Of a stretch of 34,485 nucleotides of DNA, positions 7,452 through 22,608 are shown in pieces. The stretch is from Draconibacterium orientale. Lineage in GTDB: Bacteria > Bacteroidota > Bacteroidia > Bacteroidales > UBA1556. The stretch is from the NCBI GenBank assembly GCA_022736595.1, contig DZDC01000008.1, positions 1 to 34,485 of the forward strand, in the 5' to 3' direction. The notes beneath the pieces were generated by a model, which saw nothing but the letters and a program-made list of their open reading frames with translations, did not search any database and was not told the origin of the DNA. The stretch's first letter is position 1, and every line of letters begins with the position of its first letter. The position numbers and the translations under genes are program-made.

Positions 7452-10400
7452 CTAAGCACCATGGCAATGTTTGAATTTTTTTCCACTTCCACAAGGACAT
7501 AAATCATTACGACCTACCTTCTTTTCTTTTATAATAGGTTGGGTAACTTGTTGTTCCTGAGTTTGATGGCCAAATTTATTTGGATCGGCTGATGGTTCAG
7601 AGGATCTGCCAACCTCGGTGCGGCCTGCGGTAAGTTTAGATATGTCAAAAGAAGCGGGTTTAAATGTCGATTGAATTTGAACTTCTTTGTTTGCTACCAA
7701 ATCGCATTTGATTAAGAATGAAATAATCTCTCTGTTGATTCTTTGCATCATGAGTTTAAAGAGCTCGAATGATTCAAATTTGTATATCAATAATGGATCT
7801 TTTTGCTCATAGGATGCATTTTGTACCGATTGTTTCAGTTCATCCATTTCGCGTAAATGCTCCTTCCAAGCGTTGTCAATAACCTTAAGTACCACCGTTT
7901 TTTCGATGGCGGTAATTACTTCTCTACCCTGAGTATTAACAGAACGCTCGAGGTTGGCAACTATATCCATTTGTTTAACACCATCAGTAAGTGGAATGGC
8001 AATATTTCGGTATTGATTGTTTTGAGCGTTGTAAACAGTTTCGATTACAGGAAGGGTATTTTTGCTAATCCTATTTGATTTAAGTACATAGTTGTTATAA
8101 GCTAAATCAAATATTTCTTGGGTCATCTTATCTGCCTTATTTTGAAAAAATGTTTTGGAATCATAAGGTGATTCAATTCCCAGGTTCCTGATAAGGTCAA
8201 TGGTAAATGAGTCGAAGTCTCGATTAGAAATATGTTCGTTAACAATGCTTTCGCTCAAATCATAAATCATATTACTCACGTCCATGGCGAGGCGTTCACC
8301 ATTTAAAGCATGGTTACGTTTTTTGTAAATTACCTCTCTTTGAGCATTCATCACATCGTCATATTCCAGCAATCTTTTGCGTATTCCAAAGTTGTTTTCT
8401 TCAACTTTCTTTTGCGCTCTTTCGATGGATTTTGAAATCATACTGTGCTGAATCACTTCCCCTTCTTTCAGTCCCATGCGATCCATGATGGATGCAATAC
8501 GTTCTGAACCAAATAATCGCATTAAATTATCTTCCAAAGAGACATAGAATTGAGAGCTACCTGGATCCCCTTGACGCCCTGAACGACCTCTAAGCTGACG
8601 ATCGACGCGACGTGATTCGTGGCGTTCGGTACCGATGATGGCTAAACCGCCGGCTTCTTTTACCCCTTGCCCAAGTTTTATATCCGTTCCCCGGCCAGCC
8701 ATATTGGTAGCTATGGTAACTGTACCCGCTTGACCCGCCTCAGCAACGATATCAGCCTCCTTTTGGTGAAGCTTAGCATTGAGTACATTGTGTTTGATAT
8801 TTTGAAGTTTGAGCATTCTGCTGAGAAGTTCCGAAATTTCGACAGAGGTGGTTCCAATGAGCACGGGTCGGCCCGCTTTAACCAAGTCCACGGTTTGATT
8901 GATTACCGCATTGTATTTTTCGCGCATGGTTTTGTAAACCAAATCTTGTTCATCAGCACGCTTGATGGGTTTGTTGGTAGGAATCACAGTGACATCTAAT
9001 TTATAAATGTCCCAAAGTTCTCCCGCTTCTGTTTCAGCTGTACCCGTCATCCCAGCAAGCTTATGGTACATCCTGAAGTAGTTTTGTAAGGTTATGGTAG
9101 CGTAAGTTTGAGTGGCAGCTTCTACCTTAACGTTTTCTTTAGCTTCTATGGCTTGGTGCAACCCATCGCTGTATCGACGACCTTCCATAATACGGCCAGT
9201 TTGCTCATCAACAATTTTTATTTTATTATCGATAATTACATATTCAACATCCAACTCAAAAAGGGTATAGGCTTTAAAAAGTTGGTTCATAGTGTGAACG
9301 CGCTCGGTTTTAATGCTATAGTCTTGGATGAGCTTGCTTTTTAACTCAGATTTATCAAGTGTATTTGCCGTTGAAGCATCTATTTCGTTCAATGAATTTG
9401 CCATATCGGGGAGGATATAAAACTGAGGATCGCCTGTCATCTCAGTAATAATATCGATTCCTTTATCGGTAAGTTCTATTGAATTGTGTTTTTCATCGAT
9501 AACAAAATAGAGATGATCATCGATAAGATGCATGTGCTTATTTTGTTCGGCCATGTAGAAGTTTTCAGTCTTTTGCATGCCTACTTTAATACCCGGTTCC
9601 GATAGAAATTTAATTAAAGCTTTATTTTTAGGAAGGCCTCTGTAAGCTCTAAAAAGCTTAGTGAATCCTTCTTTTTGGTGTTCTTTATCTTCGCTAGCAA
9701 TAAGTTTTTTTGCTTCTGCAAGAAGTTGAGTAACCAACTGTTTTTGAACTGCAAAAACTCTTTGAACATAGGGTTTAAGTTGGTCAAATTCTTGGAGATC
9801 GCCTTTGGGTGTTGGCCCAGAAATAATAAGGGGAGTTCGGGCATCATCAATAAGTACCGAATCAACCTCATCAACTATTGCGTAGTTGTGCTTACGTTGT
9901 ACCAACTCAGATTCTTCGGTGGCCATATTGTCGCGGAGGTAATCGAAACCAAATTCGTTATTGGTACCATAAGTAACATCAGCAAGATACGCATTGCGAC
10001 GGGCTGTGGTGTTGGGTTGATGCTTATCAATACAATCCACGCTTAAGCCGTGAAATTCAAGGAGCATTCCCATCCATTCAGAGTCGCGTTTGGCAAGGTA
10101 ATCATTAACGGTAACCACATGTACTCCGCGTCCAGGCAAAGCGTTGAGATATAAGGGTAAAGTGCCCACAAGTGTTTTTCCTTCTCCTGTAGCCATCTCA
10201 GAAATTTTTCCTTGGTGCAATACTGATCCACCAATCAACTGCACATCATAGTGAACCATATTCCAATAAATCTTTACTCCACCGGCAGTCCAGCTGTTTT
10301 CGTAGTAGGCTTTATCATTTTCAATGGTTATATTGTCGAACTTAGTGGCCAATTCTTTGTCGTGATCGGTAGCGGTAACGTCGAGTTTTGCGTTTTCGGT

Positions 10401-15277: not shown

Positions 15278-16627
15278 ATGACCAAACAAATTAAAATTAA
15301 GCGCGGCTTAGACATTAAACTTATGGGAAAAGCAGAAGAAAAACTGCAAACTATTAAGTCTAAACGTTATGCCCTCAAACCCACCGATTTTCATGGATTA
15401 TTTCCAAAATTATTAGTAAAAGTTGGAGATCAGGTTCAGCGAGGAACTCCTGTTTACTCCGACAAAAATAGAGATTACATCAAATTTACTTCACCTGTAA
15501 GTGGTGTTGTAGCAGATATTGTTCGTGGTGAAAAGCGAAAAATTTTCGAAATTATCATTGAGTCGGATGGTTCAGATTCCTTTGTAAAGTTTGATGTAGC
15601 GGATTATAAATCCAAGTCTGCCGAGACTTTAAAATCACTTTTGGTAGAAAGTGGTATTTGGGCTTATATTCGTCAGCGACCCTATAATGTGGTTGCTAAT
15701 CCAATTGACAAGCCCAATGCTATTTTTATTAGTGCTTTTGATACTGCTCCTTTAGCTGCAAATGTTGATTTTACTATGCAAGGTAAAAAGGAGGCTTTTC
15801 AAGCTGGTATTAATGCGCTATCAAAAATTGGTAACTGCAAAATTTATTTAGGAATCAATTCGCAAACTCGATGTGAGACGTTTACTCAAGCTCAAGGCGT
15901 TGAAGTCATTGGTTTTGATGGACCTCATCCTGCTGGAAATGTGGGAATTCAGATCCATCACGTCAGTCCTATTAATAAAGGTGATATCTATTGGACTGTT
16001 CAACCGCAGGATGTAGCCACCATTGGAAATCTATTTCTAAAAGGACAATACGATTCGCAACTCAATATTGCAGTGTGTGGATCAGAAGTTAAAAACCCAC
16101 AGTATTATACTGTAAATAGAGGCTCAGAAGTAGCTCCATTGTTAAAAGATAATTTGAAAGTCGAAGATAACTTTCGCATAATCAGTGGAAATGTTCTTAC
16201 AGGCACCAAGGTTGAGAAAACGGGTTTTATTTCATTTTATCATAATTCATTAACCATCATTCCTGAAGGATTTAAACGTGATTTTATGGGTTGGCTCATT
16301 CCAAGTCCAGAAAAGCATAGCTTTTATCGTACTTCATTATCATGGTTGATGCCTAATAAAGAATATCGATTGAATACCAATATTAATGGTGGAGAACGCG
16401 CATTTGTTTTCACAGGTGAAATGGAGAAAGTGTTTCCAATGAATATTTATCCAATGCAATTGCTGAAAAGTATCATTGTGGAAGATATTGACCAAATGGA
16501 ACAATTGGGGATTTATGAAGTAGTGGAGGAAGATTTTGCTCTTTGTGAATACATCAGCACTTCCAAAATTGAAATTCAAGATCTAATTCGCCAAGGATTG
16601 GATATGGTTAGAAAAGAGATGAGTTAA
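15278..16627 (+). CDS. nqrA: Na+-translocating NADH:quinone reductase subunit A
   Basis: IKIKRGLDIKLMGKAE N-terminus, RQRPYNVVANP, GFDGPHPAGNVGIQIHH, first gene of a complete nqrA-F order. Confidence 0.97.
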   Translation: MTKQIKIKRGLDIKLMGKAEEKLQTIKSKRYALKPTDFHGLFPKLLVKVGDQVQRGTPVYSDKNRDYIKFTSPVSGVVADIVRGEKRKIFEIIIESDGSDSFVKFDVADYKSKSAETLKSLLVESGIWAYIRQRPYNVVANPIDKPNAIFISAFDTAPLAANVDFTMQGKKEAFQAGINALSKIGNCKIYLGINSQTRCETFTQAQGVEVIGFDGPHPAGNVGIQIHHVSPINKGDIYWTVQPQDVATIGNLFLKGQYDSQLNIAVCGSEVKNPQYYTVNRGSEVAPLLKDNLKVEDNFRIISGNVLTGTKVEKTGFISFYHNSLTIIPEGFKRDFMGWLIPSPEKHSFYRTSLSWLMPNKEYRLNTNINGGERAFVFTGEMEKVFPMNIYPMQLLKSIIVEDIDQMEQLGIYEVVEEDFALCEYISTSKIEIQDLIRQGLDMVRKEMS

Positions 16628-16656: not shown

Positions 16657-17808
16657 ATGAAAGCAATTAGAGATATACTTGACTCTATTAAGCCTCACGT
16701 TCAGAAAGGAGGCAAATTTCACGCACTTCATTCGTTTTACGATGCCATTGATACTTTGATGTTTGTTCCAGGAACAACCACCTCCAAAGGAAGTCATATT
16801 CGTGATGGCGTAGATATGAAGCGGACCATGTTTGTGGTGGTGATTGCCCTGATTCCCGCCCTTTTATTTGGCATGTGGAATGTTGGAGCTATGCATTTTG
16901 TATCTAATGGATATGAAGCAACTTTTCTGCAATCTTTTTGGTATGGATTTATTGAGGTATTACCCTTAATTGTTGTGAGCTATGGTGTGGGTTTGACGGT
17001 TGAAATTATTTTTGCCCAATTTCGTGGTCATGAAGTAAATGAAGGTTTTTTTGTGAGTGGAATGCTCATTCCTTTGGTATTACCCGTTACTACACCATTA
17101 TGGGTTGTAGCTATCGCAGTAGCTTTTGCCGTTGTTTTTAGTAAAGAAGTTTTTGGGGGTACTGGAATGAACTTGGTTAACCCCGCACTTTTTGCACGCG
17201 CATTCTTATTCTTTGCTTATCCCAGTTTTATGTCAGGCGATTTTGTATGGATTTCGGAAAAAGCTGATGCCTTCAGTGGAGCAACCCCATTAGCTGAATT
17301 GGCCGCTGGTAATACGCCTAACCTAAGTGTACTTGATATGTTAATTGGTAACTATTCGGGTTCCATTGGTGAATCTTCCTTTATTGCCATTGCCATTGGA
17401 GCAGCTATTCTTCTTTTTACTGGAGTAGCCAGTTGGAAAGTAATGACATCCTTCTTTTTGGGTGGTTTAGGCATGGGATTATTACTTAATGTATTTGCCG
17501 GAAGTTTTCCAGATAATTCTTATTTGGCATTACCAGCATTCCAACACCTTTTGTTAGGGGGCTTTGCTTTTGGTGGTGTATTTATGATTACCGATCCAGT
17601 TACAGCAGCCCAAACTGAAACAGGAAAGTGGATTTATGGATTTTTAGCAGGATTTTTAGCAATTATGGTTCGTGTTCTTAACCCCGCATATCCAGAAGGG
17701 GTAATGCTTGCCATATTATTAATGAACGTATTTGCTCCTACTATCGATTACTATGTAGTTGATTCTAATATCAATAAACGTTTGAAACGAGCTAAAGTAA
17801 AAGCATAA
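16657..17808 (+). CDS. nqrB: Na+-translocating NADH:quinone reductase subunit B
   Basis: Polytopic; covalent FMN-Thr motif FSGATPLAEL; VNPALFARAFLFFAYP; MITDPVTAAQTETGKWIYG. Confidence 0.97.
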   Translation: MKAIRDILDSIKPHVQKGGKFHALHSFYDAIDTLMFVPGTTTSKGSHIRDGVDMKRTMFVVVIALIPALLFGMWNVGAMHFVSNGYEATFLQSFWYGFIEVLPLIVVSYGVGLTVEIIFAQFRGHEVNEGFFVSGMLIPLVLPVTTPLWVVAIAVAFAVVFSKEVFGGTGMNLVNPALFARAFLFFAYPSFMSGDFVWISEKADAFSGATPLAELAAGNTPNLSVLDMLIGNYSGSIGESSFIAIAIGAAILLFTGVASWKVMTSFFLGGLGMGLLLNVFAGSFPDNSYLALPAFQHLLLGGFAFGGVFMITDPVTAAQTETGKWIYGFLAGFLAIMVRVLNPAYPEGVMLAILLMNVFAPTIDYYVVDSNINKRLKRAKVKA

Positions 17809-17838: not shown

Positions 17839-18603
17839 ATGAATAAAGAAAGTAATGCTTACATTTTTATTTACGCCTCAGTTATGGTGGTTTTAGTTGC
17901 TATTTTATTAGCTTCTGCCAACCTAGGACTTAGCCCGTATCAAGAAAAGAATAAGCAAAATGAAAAAATGATAAAGATTTTGGGTTCTGTGGGTATTCAA
18001 GCTACTCCCGCTGATGCAGAAAAAATCTATAATGAGCACCTTGTAAAAGAGGTTGTACTGAACACTAAAGGCGAAGAGTTGAGTGTTTACTCCAAAGGAA
18101 AATTTGAAAAAGGATCGCAACGTGCTTTTGATATCAATCTTAAAGCTGCCTTGAAGAAGATAGTGAAAGGTGAGGATGGTGCTTTACCCTTATTTATTTT
18201 CGAAGCCGAAGGAACTCAATATTATGTAATTCCAATGTTCGGTAAAGGATTGTGGGGGCCTATCTATGGGAATATGGCCCTTGAGACAGATCGAAACACC
18301 GTTTATGGAGTTAACTTTGCTCATGATGGTGAAACCCCAGGACTTGGAGCCGAGATTGCTAATCCTCCTGTGGAAGGTAAAGTGGTTTTTGCTGACCAAT
18401 TTAAGCAAAAGAAAATTTTTGATGAGGCTGGTAATTTTACTTCTGTTAAAGTGGTAAAAGGCGGAGTTAAAAGCCAAACCGCTGTATTGCCTGCCAATGG
18501 AGTAGATGCCATCAGTGGAAGTACCCTTACTTGTAATGGGGTGTCGGCAATGCTAAATGACAATTTGAAAAATTACGTTAACTATTTTAAAAATATTAAA
18601 TAG
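17839..18603 (+). CDS. nqrC: Na+-translocating NADH:quinone reductase subunit C
   Basis: Single N-terminal TM; FMN-binding domain with [10 protein letters not shown] and the covalent FMN-Thr motif [11 protein letters not shown]. Confidence 0.96.
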
Positions 18604-18605
18604 AT

Positions 18606-19256
18606 ATGGCTGAGAAAAAAGAAAAAGAAGCTTTGTTTTCGCCCAAAAACATGAAGCTTATCACCAATCCTCTTTTTATTGATAATCCAATTACAAAGCA
18701 GGTATTGGGAATATGTTCGGCATTAGCTGTTACTGTAAAATTGGAACCAGCTATCGTTATGGCTTTATCAGTAACTGTTGTAACTGGGTTTGGTAGTTTA
18801 ATTATATCAATGTTGCGTAATAGTATACCCAACCGTATCCGAATAATAGTTCAACTTGTTGTTATTGCAGCTTTGGTAATTTTAGTTGACCAAGTGCTCA
18901 AGGCTTTCTCCTATGAAGTTAGTAAGCAATTATCTGTATTTGTAGGTCTAATCATTACTAACTGTATTGTAATGGGTCGCTTTGAAGCCTTTGCGATGGC
19001 CAACAAGCCTTGGCCATCATTGCTTGATGGTATTGGTAATGGATTTGGTTATGGCTGGATATTGATTGTTGTAGCTCTTTTTAGAGAGTTATTTGGGTCA
19101 GGTACCGTTTTAGGAGTAAAACTCATTCCTGATGCTTTTTACGAAATGGGCTATGTAAACAATGGATTAGTGATTTTACCTCCAATGGCTTTATTTGCAG
19201 TGGGTATCATTATTTGGATTCAAAGGGCTCGCAACAGAAGTATGATTGAAGATTAG
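18606..19256 (+). CDS. nqrD: Na+-translocating NADH:quinone reductase subunit D
   Basis: [23 protein letters not shown] and [35 protein letters not shown]. Confidence 0.96.
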
Positions 19257-19279: not shown

Positions 19280-19897
19280 ATGCAAGAATTAGTAAATATA
19301 TTTGTCAAGTCCATATTTATGGACAACATGGTCTTCGCTTACTTCCTCGGAATGTGCTCTTATTTAGCTGTTTCAAAGACGGTTAAAACTAGTGTAGGAC
19401 TTGGTGCCGCCGTTGTTTTTATTCAAATAATTACAGTTCCATTAAATTATTTGATTGATAAGTACCTTTTAGCTGCTGGAGCACTCTCATGGTTAGGTCC
19501 GGAATATGCCTCTGTAGATTTGAGTTTCTTAAGCTTCATCATGTTTATCGCCATTATCGCCTCTTTGGTTCAGATTGTGGAAATGGTGGTTGAGAAATTT
19601 AGCCCTGCACTTTATGCTTCTTTAGGAATTTTCCTTCCTCTGATTGCTGTTAATTGCGCTATTTTAGGAGGATCCTTATTTATGCAACAAAGAGAATATC
19701 AATCTGTTGCTGAAGCTACTTCCTTTGGTCTTGGATCTGGCATTGGCTGGGCACTTGCAATTATTGCTATTGCTGCTATTCGTGAGAAAATGAGATATTC
19801 CCATATTCCAGCTCCTTTACGTGGTTTAGGTATTACCTTTATTATCACAGGTTTGATGGGGATGGCGTTTATGACCTTCATGGGAATTAAATTGTAA
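19280..19897 (+). CDS. nqrE: Na+-translocating NADH:quinone reductase subunit E
   Basis: [62 protein letters not shown]. Confidence 0.96.
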
Positions 19898-19927: not shown

Positions 19928-21190
19928 ATGATTTTAGCCGAAATTTCAACTGCAACCATTGTAATAATAAGTGTTATTACTTTTTTGGTTATGATTTTGC
20001 TCTTGGTAAGTATTTTACTCTATGCCAAGAAAAAGCTAACTCCACAAGGGTTGGTCAAAATTATTATTAACGACGAAAAGGAAGTAGAAACTTCTCCAGG
20101 AAGTTCGTTACTATCTACCCTGACCAATGAAAAAATCTTCCTTCCTTCCGCTTGTGGTGGTGGTGGAACTTGTGGTATGTGTAAAGTTCAAGTTTTTGAA
20201 GGAGGTGGAGATATCCTTCCTACTGAAAAGGGCTTTTTTACTCGTAAAGAAGCTCAAGATCATTGGCGTCTTGGATGCCAAGTTAAGGTGAGAAATGACC
20301 TTAAAATTAGAGTTTCTCATGAGGTATTTGGAATTAAGAAATGGGAATGTGAAGTGGTTTCGAACAACAATGTGGCCACTTTTATTAAAGAATTTGTTGT
20401 GAAATTGCCCGATGGTGAGCATTTGGATTTCCGAAGTGGAGGTTATATTCAAATCGATGTACCTAAATGTGAGGTTGACTATAAAAACATTGAAATTGGT
20501 GAAAAATTCCGTGGCGACTGGGATAAATTTAAAATGTGGGATCTTAAAATGAAGAATCCAGAACCTATTTATCGTGCTTATTCCATGGCCAACCACCCAG
20601 CCGAGGGTAATATTGTTATGTTAAACATTCGTATCGCTACTCCTCCTTGGGATCCTAAGACTAAAGGTTTTATGAACGTTAATCCGGGTATATGTTCTTC
20701 CTATATCTTTAGCTTAAAGCCTGGCGATAAAGTGATGGTCTCGGGCCCTTATGGTGAGTTCTTTATTAAAGATACCAAACGCGAAATGATGTTTATTGGC
20801 GGAGGTGCTGGTATGGCTCCTATGCGTTCTCATATTTTTGATCAGTTCCTTACCAAGAAAACCAAAGATCGTAAAGCCACTTTCTGGTACGGAGGTCGTT
20901 CGCTACGCGAATTGTTCTACGTGGACCAATTCCAAGCTATTGAAAAGGATTTCCCTAATTTTAAATTTAATATTGGACTTTCAGAGCCCATGCCTGAAGA
21001 CAATTGGACTGGATATGTAGGATTTATTCATCAAGTTATTCTCGATACTTACCTTTCAAAACATGAAGATCCAGAAGAAATTGAATACTATCTTTGCGGT
21101 CCTCCCATGATGAATGCGGCAGTTCTAAAAATGCTGGATGATCTTGGAGTTCCAAATGAAATGATTGCCTTCGATGATTTTGGAGGATAA
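19928..21190 (+). CDS. nqrF: Na+-translocating NADH:quinone reductase subunit F (2Fe-2S/FAD)
   Basis: 2Fe-2S motif [16 protein letters not shown]...GCQVKV, FAD site [13 protein letters not shown] site [13 protein letters not shown]-terminal [14 protein letters not shown]. Confidence 0.98.
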
Positions 21191-21196
21191 TATTTT

Positions 21197-21222
21197 AAAA
21201 GGCCGATTTTTTCGGCCTTTTT
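21197..21222 (+). terminator. Intrinsic terminator after nqrF
   Basis: AAAAGGCCGA-ttttt-TCGGCCTTTTT. Confidence 0.85.
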
Positions 21223-21247: not shown

Positions 21248-22276
21248 ATGAAATTTTTAAAATCTTTTTACTTTCTGCTGATAAGCTCTTTGTGGATGTT
21301 GGCCTGTAATTCAGAGTCCCCCAAGCCCTTAAATCGTTATCAAGTTACTGGGGAGGCTCAGGGCACTTACTACTCCGTAATTTATTATCACACAGAGGAC
21401 TTGAATCTTCAAACTACATTGGATAGCTTCTTTAAGGCTTTTGATTTATCAGCCTCTAATTACAACCCAAATTCCATTATTTCGAAAGTTAACCGAAATG
21501 AAGAAGTGGTTCTGGATTCTATTTTTATCAATAACTTTAATTTGGCCTTTCGCGTTTCAGAAATGTCTGGCGGGAAGTTTGATATTACAGTGCGGCCACT
21601 AACTGAGCTTTGGGGCTTTGGCAAGGAAAGACAACAGATCGTGAATCCTGAGCAAGTAGATAGCGTTAGGGTTTTTATCGGATATAAAAAGATTAAGATT
21701 ATAGAGGGTAAAATCGTTAAAGAAGATCCTCGAATACAATTAGATTTTAATGCAATTGCTCAAGGTTACTCGGTGGATGAAGTAGCCAAATTGCTTCGAA
21801 ATAGAGGCCTTAGTACTTTTCTGGTTGATGTTGGAGGCGAAGTGTATGCCAGCAAAAGCAAACCTGATGGTAAGTTGTGGTCGGTTGGTGTTGAAAAGCC
21901 CGTGGATAGTGCTGCCTATGGAAATGCAATCGTGGCATTTATTTCCTTATCAGAAAAGGGTTTGGCCACAAGTGGTAATTATCGAAAATTTTATGTTAAA
22001 GATGGTTTGAAAGTGGTACATACCATTGACCCATTTACTGGATATCCGATATCGCAAAATTTATTAAGTGCAACCATTATTGCTCCTACGGCTGCTTACG
22101 CCGATGCTATTGCCACAGCATGTATGGTTTCTGGACTTGATGAAAGTATCAAACTTATTGAAAATAATAGCGAATTGGATGCTTTATTAATTTATAGCGA
22201 TAGTGCAGGCAATTATCGCGAATATATAAGTCCAAAATTAAGGTCTTATATCGAAATAAATACTGAGAATCAATAG
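21248..22276 (+). CDS. apbE: FAD:protein FMN transferase (ApbE lipoprotein)
   Basis: Lipobox LWMLAC; DFNAIAQGYSVDEVA, FLVDVGGEVYASKSKPDGKLWSVGVEKP, HTIDPFTGYPI, ADAIATACMV. Confidence 0.95.
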   Translation: MKFLKSFYFLLISSLWMLACNSESPKPLNRYQVTGEAQGTYYSVIYYHTEDLNLQTTLDSFFKAFDLSASNYNPNSIISKVNRNEEVVLDSIFINNFNLAFRVSEMSGGKFDITVRPLTELWGFGKERQQIVNPEQVDSVRVFIGYKKIKIIEGKIVKEDPRIQLDFNAIAQGYSVDEVAKLLRNRGLSTFLVDVGGEVYASKSKPDGKLWSVGVEKPVDSAAYGNAIVAFISLSEKGLATSGNYRKFYVKDGLKVVHTIDPFTGYPISQNLLSATIIAPTAAYADAIATACMVSGLDESIKLIENNSELDALLIYSDSAGNYREYISPKLRSYIEINTENQ

Positions 22277-22530
22277 GTTTTAATAACCATTCTTTCAGTG
22301 TGAATGTGTGGAGCATGATCGGCTCCTTTGCCATGATGGTCTTCATAATTTTCGCATCTTTCTTCAGGAGATTTTTCTCCGCAGGAGCAACCAATATTCT
22401 TTAAAGGGCCTACATCCACACTGCTGCATTGTTTGGTAAATGTGCCACCTTTTATAAAGAACATCTTAACCGCTATGATGGCAATGGAGAACCCTACAAT
22501 ACCTAAACTTAACAAAAATAATTTGATCAT
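22270..22530 (-). CDS. Small single-TM Cys-rich protein, candidate NqrM-like Na+-NQR maturation factor
   Basis: 86 aa, N-terminal TM then C-x11-C-x-C-x8-C (KQCSSVDVGPLKNIGCSCGEKSPEERC); tail-to-tail overlap with apbE. TM-plus-cysteine layout resembles DUF539/NqrM. Confidence 0.6.
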   Translation of the reverse strand: MIKLFLLSLGIVGFSIAIIAVKMFFIKGGTFTKQCSSVDVGPLKNIGCSCGEKSPEERCENYEDHHGKGADHAPHIHTERMVIKTY

Positions 22531-22608
22531 CGTCTTAACTTTTTATCATTCGAAGTGAGTTGCAAAGGTACGATTATAGAAGTGTTATTGGAGGTTTAAA
22601 AGCTGATT

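Follow-up and report, generated by a model that had tools for sequence, protein, structure and literature searches.

NqrM, a maturation factor of the Na+-NQR, is to our knowledge established only in proteobacteria, and the primary work on it is reportedly that of Kostyrko and colleagues from 2016. In V. cholerae, NqrM seems to be required for inserting the cluster of the NqrD/NqrE site (review, PMC12174285), and it is predicted to deliver Fe (PMC6209661). NQR itself is derived from Bacteroidota in reviews (PMC12174285), and the open-access papers that we found are silent on which factor might mature the [2Fe-2S] site of the Bacteroidota enzyme. Here we analyze a small gene beside the nqr genes of Draconibacterium orientale, located in a 34,485-nucleotide stretch of DNA (contig DZDC01000008.1; hereafter the window). 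With a probability of roughly 0.8, we take this gene to encode the NqrM-equivalent Na+-NQR maturation factor of the phylum, probably a distant NqrM homologue, which would load iron or Fe-S into NqrD/NqrE.

All six nqr genes of the window are intact on the forward strand, each matching its nqr model: nqrA (15278–16627; TIGR01936), nqrB (16657–17808; TIGR01937), nqrC (17839–18603; TIGR01938), nqrD (18606–19256; TIGR01939), nqrE (19280–19897; TIGR01940) and nqrF (19928–21190; TIGR01941). Alignment revealed both candidate metal-site cysteines in NqrD (LGIC and ITNC) and in NqrE (LGMC and VNC). Downstream lie apbE, encoding a flavin transferase (21248–22276, forward strand; PF02424, E 6e-77), and, convergent with it, an 86-aa open reading frame with an ATG start on the reverse strand (22270–22530; coding part 22273–22530, stop codon 22270–22272), the translation of which (P0001) is MIKLFLLSLGIVGFSIAIIAVKMFFIKGGTFTKQCSSVDVGPLKNIGCSCGEKSPEERCENYEDHHGKGADHAPHIHTERMVIKTY. 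A first reading made from the sequence alone had described this frame as encoding a protein with one N-terminal transmembrane (TM) helix, lying after nqrA–F and overlapping the end of apbE by 7 nt; its position and the overlap (22270–22276) were confirmed, as was the protein itself, by the ORF call and an AlphaFold2 helix. Divergent from nqrA, on the reverse strand, are genes for a NifU-like domain protein (PF01106, 13512–13769) and an Mrp-type iron-transfer P-loop NTPase (PF10609, 13791–14915). We considered Mrp/NifU and nqrA as a conserved unit and rejected this, since neither was found next to nqrA at the other loci retrieved, whose flanks were of limited length and which included those of the same-genus genomes G002 and G004.

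In the AlphaFold2 model of P0001, the single N-terminal TM helix (residues 2–25; 22456–22527, reverse strand) is predicted with a pLDDT of ~97, and it alone is confident, the remainder being of low confidence. Further along the chain is a cysteine cluster, C35-x12-C48-x-C50-x8-C59 (22354–22428, reverse strand), and all four of these residues are invariant in an alignment of 20 relatives from the window's order (A1). The four cysteines had been noticed from the sequence alone, with a first spacing of x11 that we correct to x12. Residues 65–78 (22297–22338, reverse strand) form a His-rich tail, HHGKGADHAPHIHT, which had been taken for a trait of Bacteroidota at large; it is instead genus-specific, being kept in same-genus loci (similar in L002–L006, reduced in L007–L008) and absent from other families.

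Neither P0001, nor any of the 20 A1 members, nor the members of a flavobacterial subset (A4) matched any curated Pfam or NCBIfam family, PF04400 (NqrM) included, and the family is unannotated in both collections. True NqrM sequences, serving as a positive control in the same test, scored 32–80 bits against PF04400 (curated cut-off 22 bits). PF12669, the FeoB-associated Cys-rich membrane protein (curated cut-off 27 bits), was not matched by P0001, and the first A4 member reached 13.4 bits, below the cut-off. Searches of plasmids by tblastn with P0001 and with one flavobacterial member returned noise only. Four PLSDB entries labelled as plasmids (CP125156.1, NZ_OL790811.1, NZ_AP026896.1 and NZ_CP119142.1) are of chromosome size (2–5 Mb) and look like misfiled chromosomes.

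Comparison of profiles with profiles, by contrast with these single-sequence searches, revealed a similarity to NqrM (E ~1e-7). Aligning A1 by hhalign with seven proteobacterial NqrM sequences from public records (A2; gamma, beta and one alpha) gave 93.5% (E 2.3e-7) with all four cysteines aligned, and a set of thirteen (A5) gave 94% (E 1.4e-7) with the first three aligned. The tails alone aligned weakly (E 0.03–0.3), and thus the TM helix carries most of the score. When only the columns of the tail were shuffled in the NqrM alignment, none of 60 permutations reached the real score for A1, and none of 60 for a broadened profile of the family (A3), so that the order of columns in the Cys tail adds to the similarity score of both; for the flavobacterial A4, 2 and 4 of 60 permutations reached it against A2 and A5, indicating no tail signal. 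Several members have a bridging character: L019 and L020 carry GGSC...C-x-C...C, and L093 carries GSC...C-x2-C, like alphaproteobacterial NqrM.

The family and NqrM share a number of features: firstly, their size (~60–90 aa), one N-terminal TM helix, a Lys-rich segment and four cysteines in the same order; secondly, a central cysteine pair, which is C-x-C in gamma NqrM and C-x2-C in alpha NqrM; thirdly, linkage to apbE/nqr (many Flavobacteriales members being unlinked) and restriction to NQR-bearing genomes (with exceptions in the window's order). Unlike NqrM, which has GSCGG and a C3–C4 spacing of x3 or x14, the window's family has KGG(x)FxKxCSS... and a spacing of x8, is convergent to apbE, is often unlinked from nqr and has a genus-specific His tail. 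We read the family as a probable, far-diverged homologue of the proteobacterial NqrM proteins, lying outside PF04400 as curated.

To relate the family to NQR, we used a phylum sample of 198 genomes, 42 of them nqrD-positive (besides the window's genome) and 156 nqrD-negative. A1, built from the window's order only, gave clear matches (E < 1e-7) in 30 of the 42 nqrD-positive genomes and in none of the nqrD-negative ones. The broadened A3 identified the family in 35/42 nqrD-positive genomes, one copy each, and in 0/156 nqrD-negative genomes (Fisher p = 3e-32); as A3 includes sequences from some of the sampled genomes, its recall is partly circular, but its specificity is not. The concern that the family might be present in many genomes lacking nqr is answered by the same count, and none of the 18 genomes of the sample that have RNF, a complex related to NQR, without NQR itself (RNF-only) carried it. 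Within the window's order the association was looser than in the phylum sample, the four-Cys family being found (E < 0.001) in 43/50 nqrD-positive and 3/10 nqrD-negative genomes. Among these three exceptions, nqrF is cut off at a contig end in G020, and the genome of G021 is 61% complete; G049, which is 97% complete with no nqrD or nqrF detected, looks like a true exception and carries a four-Cys member (L255:1854–2084) near trmH. Four NQR-bearing genomes of the order (G013, G028, G055 and G057) gave no match even at E 0.1. Loss of the iron site in NQR lineages without a profile match was considered and rejected: the NqrD/NqrE cysteine motifs are kept in every lineage checked, apart from one NqrE motif pattern unmatched in G025. 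The place of NqrM at PF04400 level is vacant in the phylum sample (0/198 genomes above the cut-off) although the NqrD/NqrE cysteines are conserved. Co-occurrence with nqrD and the mostly TM-driven profile–profile similarity both support the sequence-only reading of the window's protein as a divergent NqrM, and the family very likely does NqrM's job.

The 7 of 42 nqrD-positive genomes missed by A3 are the NQR-bearing genomes of family f65, all seven of them, and each has a different one-TM protein, with the motif CCGGG-x-C...C, adjoining its nqr-apbE cluster (L098–L104, e.g. L098:6684–6887) and situated downstream of apbE wherever apbE was detected. A profile of this protein (A6) gave strong matches in exactly those seven genomes, the next matches being noise (E 0.004–0.01), and all 42 NQR-bearing genomes carry either the window's family or the CCGGG-x-C...C protein. 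The two are mutually exclusive and alike in having one TM helix, a Cys-rich tail, a place beside nqr-apbE and one copy per NQR-bearing genome; the f65 protein differs in its cysteine motif and in being co-directional with apbE. Its tail similarity to NqrM is borderline, as 0 and 1 of 60 permutations reach the real score (1/60 with A5), and we regard it as a second candidate NqrM equivalent.

The presence of this different family beside apbE in seven NQR-bearing genomes without the window's family also lends weight to the strongest alternative, namely that the window's protein is a functional analogue of NqrM without common descent: a one-TM Cys-rich protein of other origin that took over the same job through non-orthologous replacement. 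The missing PF04400 match and the weak alignment of the tails point the same way. By contrast, the cysteines fall in register with those of NqrM without being forced, the order of tail columns matters for A1 and A3 (0/60), and the bridging members carry NqrM-like cysteine motifs. We view such a replacement as possible, if rather unlikely.

The window's order also contains a Cys-poor relative of the family, KxGxFPxxxIGxNxxMxxxGITC (FP-type), in which the first cysteine is lost and one cysteine is sometimes kept. This paralogue is present in many NQR-bearing genomes of the order, either by itself or paired with the four-Cys gene (as a tandem in G041, G048, G052 and G053), at the loci L260:7188–7466 and 7597–7815, L261, L262, L258, L139, L141 and L145. 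If the FP-type replaces the four-Cys protein, the simple model of a four-Cys iron carrier would need revision. A rubrerythrin/ferritin-like protein (PF02915; 24740–25243, reverse strand) is encoded 2 kb beyond the NqrM-like gene of the window, and a homologue of it also adjoins the FP-type gene in L111/L135.

The window's NqrM-like gene has a promoter-like box 40 nt upstream of its ATG, TACCTTTG (22563–22570, reverse strand), which by motif matches TAnnTTTG, the −7 element of Bacteroidota promoters. Such a box precedes 7 of the 8 same-genus orthologues at a distance of up to 90 nt, with ~0.06 expected per upstream region, and the gene likely has its own promoter. Between nqrF and apbE there is a terminator-like hairpin with a 10-pair stem and a T-rich tail (21197–21221, forward strand; a consensus match only). 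Together, the box and the hairpin suggest that nqrA–F, apbE and the NqrM-like gene are separate units. Among 80 named loci, mostly from Flavobacteriales (including Crocinitomicaceae, Flagellimonas, Maribacter and Cellulophaga baltica), apbE adjoins the family gene in 32 and is convergent with it in 31 of these; neither apbE nor nqr turned up in the flanks retrieved for the other 48, so that the family goes with nqr even where the two are unlinked. The convergent order also prevails in the window's relatives and at most linked loci elsewhere in the comparison; G104 has the co-directional order nqrA-F-apbE-gene, as in the proteobacterial apbE-nqrM pair. The position on the opposite strand, at first thought unusual, is therefore the usual layout when the genes are linked. 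Expression separate from that of apbE, one part of the original proposal, agrees with the likely promoter; the other part, antagonism to apbE, is unsupported.

Strict co-occurrence with NQR cannot by itself tell an assembly factor from a structural accessory subunit or a regulator of the enzyme. The V. cholerae NQR structures that we are aware of show only NqrA–F, which concerns V. cholerae. Frequent separation from the operon and a likely promoter of its own suit a helper that acts catalytically more than a subunit needed in stoichiometric amounts, and the four invariant cysteines in a short tail, together with the parallels to NqrM, also argue against a subunit or regulator, which we deem improbable. 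More improbable still is a general iron or metal protein of the FeoB-associated Cys-rich type with an accidental neighbourhood: PF12669 proteins are likewise short and Cys-rich with an N-terminal TM helix, and some family members show weak, sub-threshold FeoB_associated matches (best E 0.1), but the distribution of the window's family follows nqr, and its absence from all 156 NQR-less genomes of the phylum sample would be unexpected for a general iron protein.

Same-genus orthologues of P0001 are 59–72% identical to it across most of their length, and pairwise dN/dS values of ~0.01–0.29, from pairs with unsaturated dS, indicate purifying selection on the NqrM-like gene. Given this low dN/dS, the four cysteines invariant in 20 homologues and the upstream TAnnTTTG box, we conclude that the open reading frame is a genuine gene and no chance frame. 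A spurious frame on the strand complementary to the end of apbE and to the intergenic gap, as the small size and lack of a database family might suggest, is contradicted by an overlap of just 7 nt, orthologues in many genomes, purifying selection and invariant cysteines, and its probability is negligible.

Taking the NqrM-like protein as a maturation factor, we propose the following course of events. A dedicated promoter would drive the gene in the direction opposite to apbE, and the computed TM helix would anchor the product in the inner membrane, with the Lys-rich segment and four-Cys tail predicted to face the cytoplasm (positive-inside rule, Lys after the TM helix). Iron, or a small Fe-S unit, would be bound by the Cys tail and passed on during assembly to the intramembrane Cys4 site common to NqrD and NqrE, by analogy with NqrM of V. 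cholerae and V. harveyi. Meanwhile, ApbE would attach FMN to NqrB and NqrC.

With its near-perfect profile in the phylum sample, the window's family would fill the maturation-factor gap in Bacteroidota, and it may provide the component lacking so far when Bacteroidota NQR is to be produced in E. coli. Tentatively, and with considerable doubt, we put forward a broader view: every NQR in the phylum of the enzyme's presumed origin may come with a dedicated one-TM Cys-rich factor, at least two lineages may rely for it on proteins with little or no relationship to each other (the window's family and the CCGGG-x-C...C protein), and the Cys-poor tandem paralogue of the window's order may be a partner or a successor. 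If this is true, NQR would in general depend on such a factor, and different proteins would have filled the role repeatedly.
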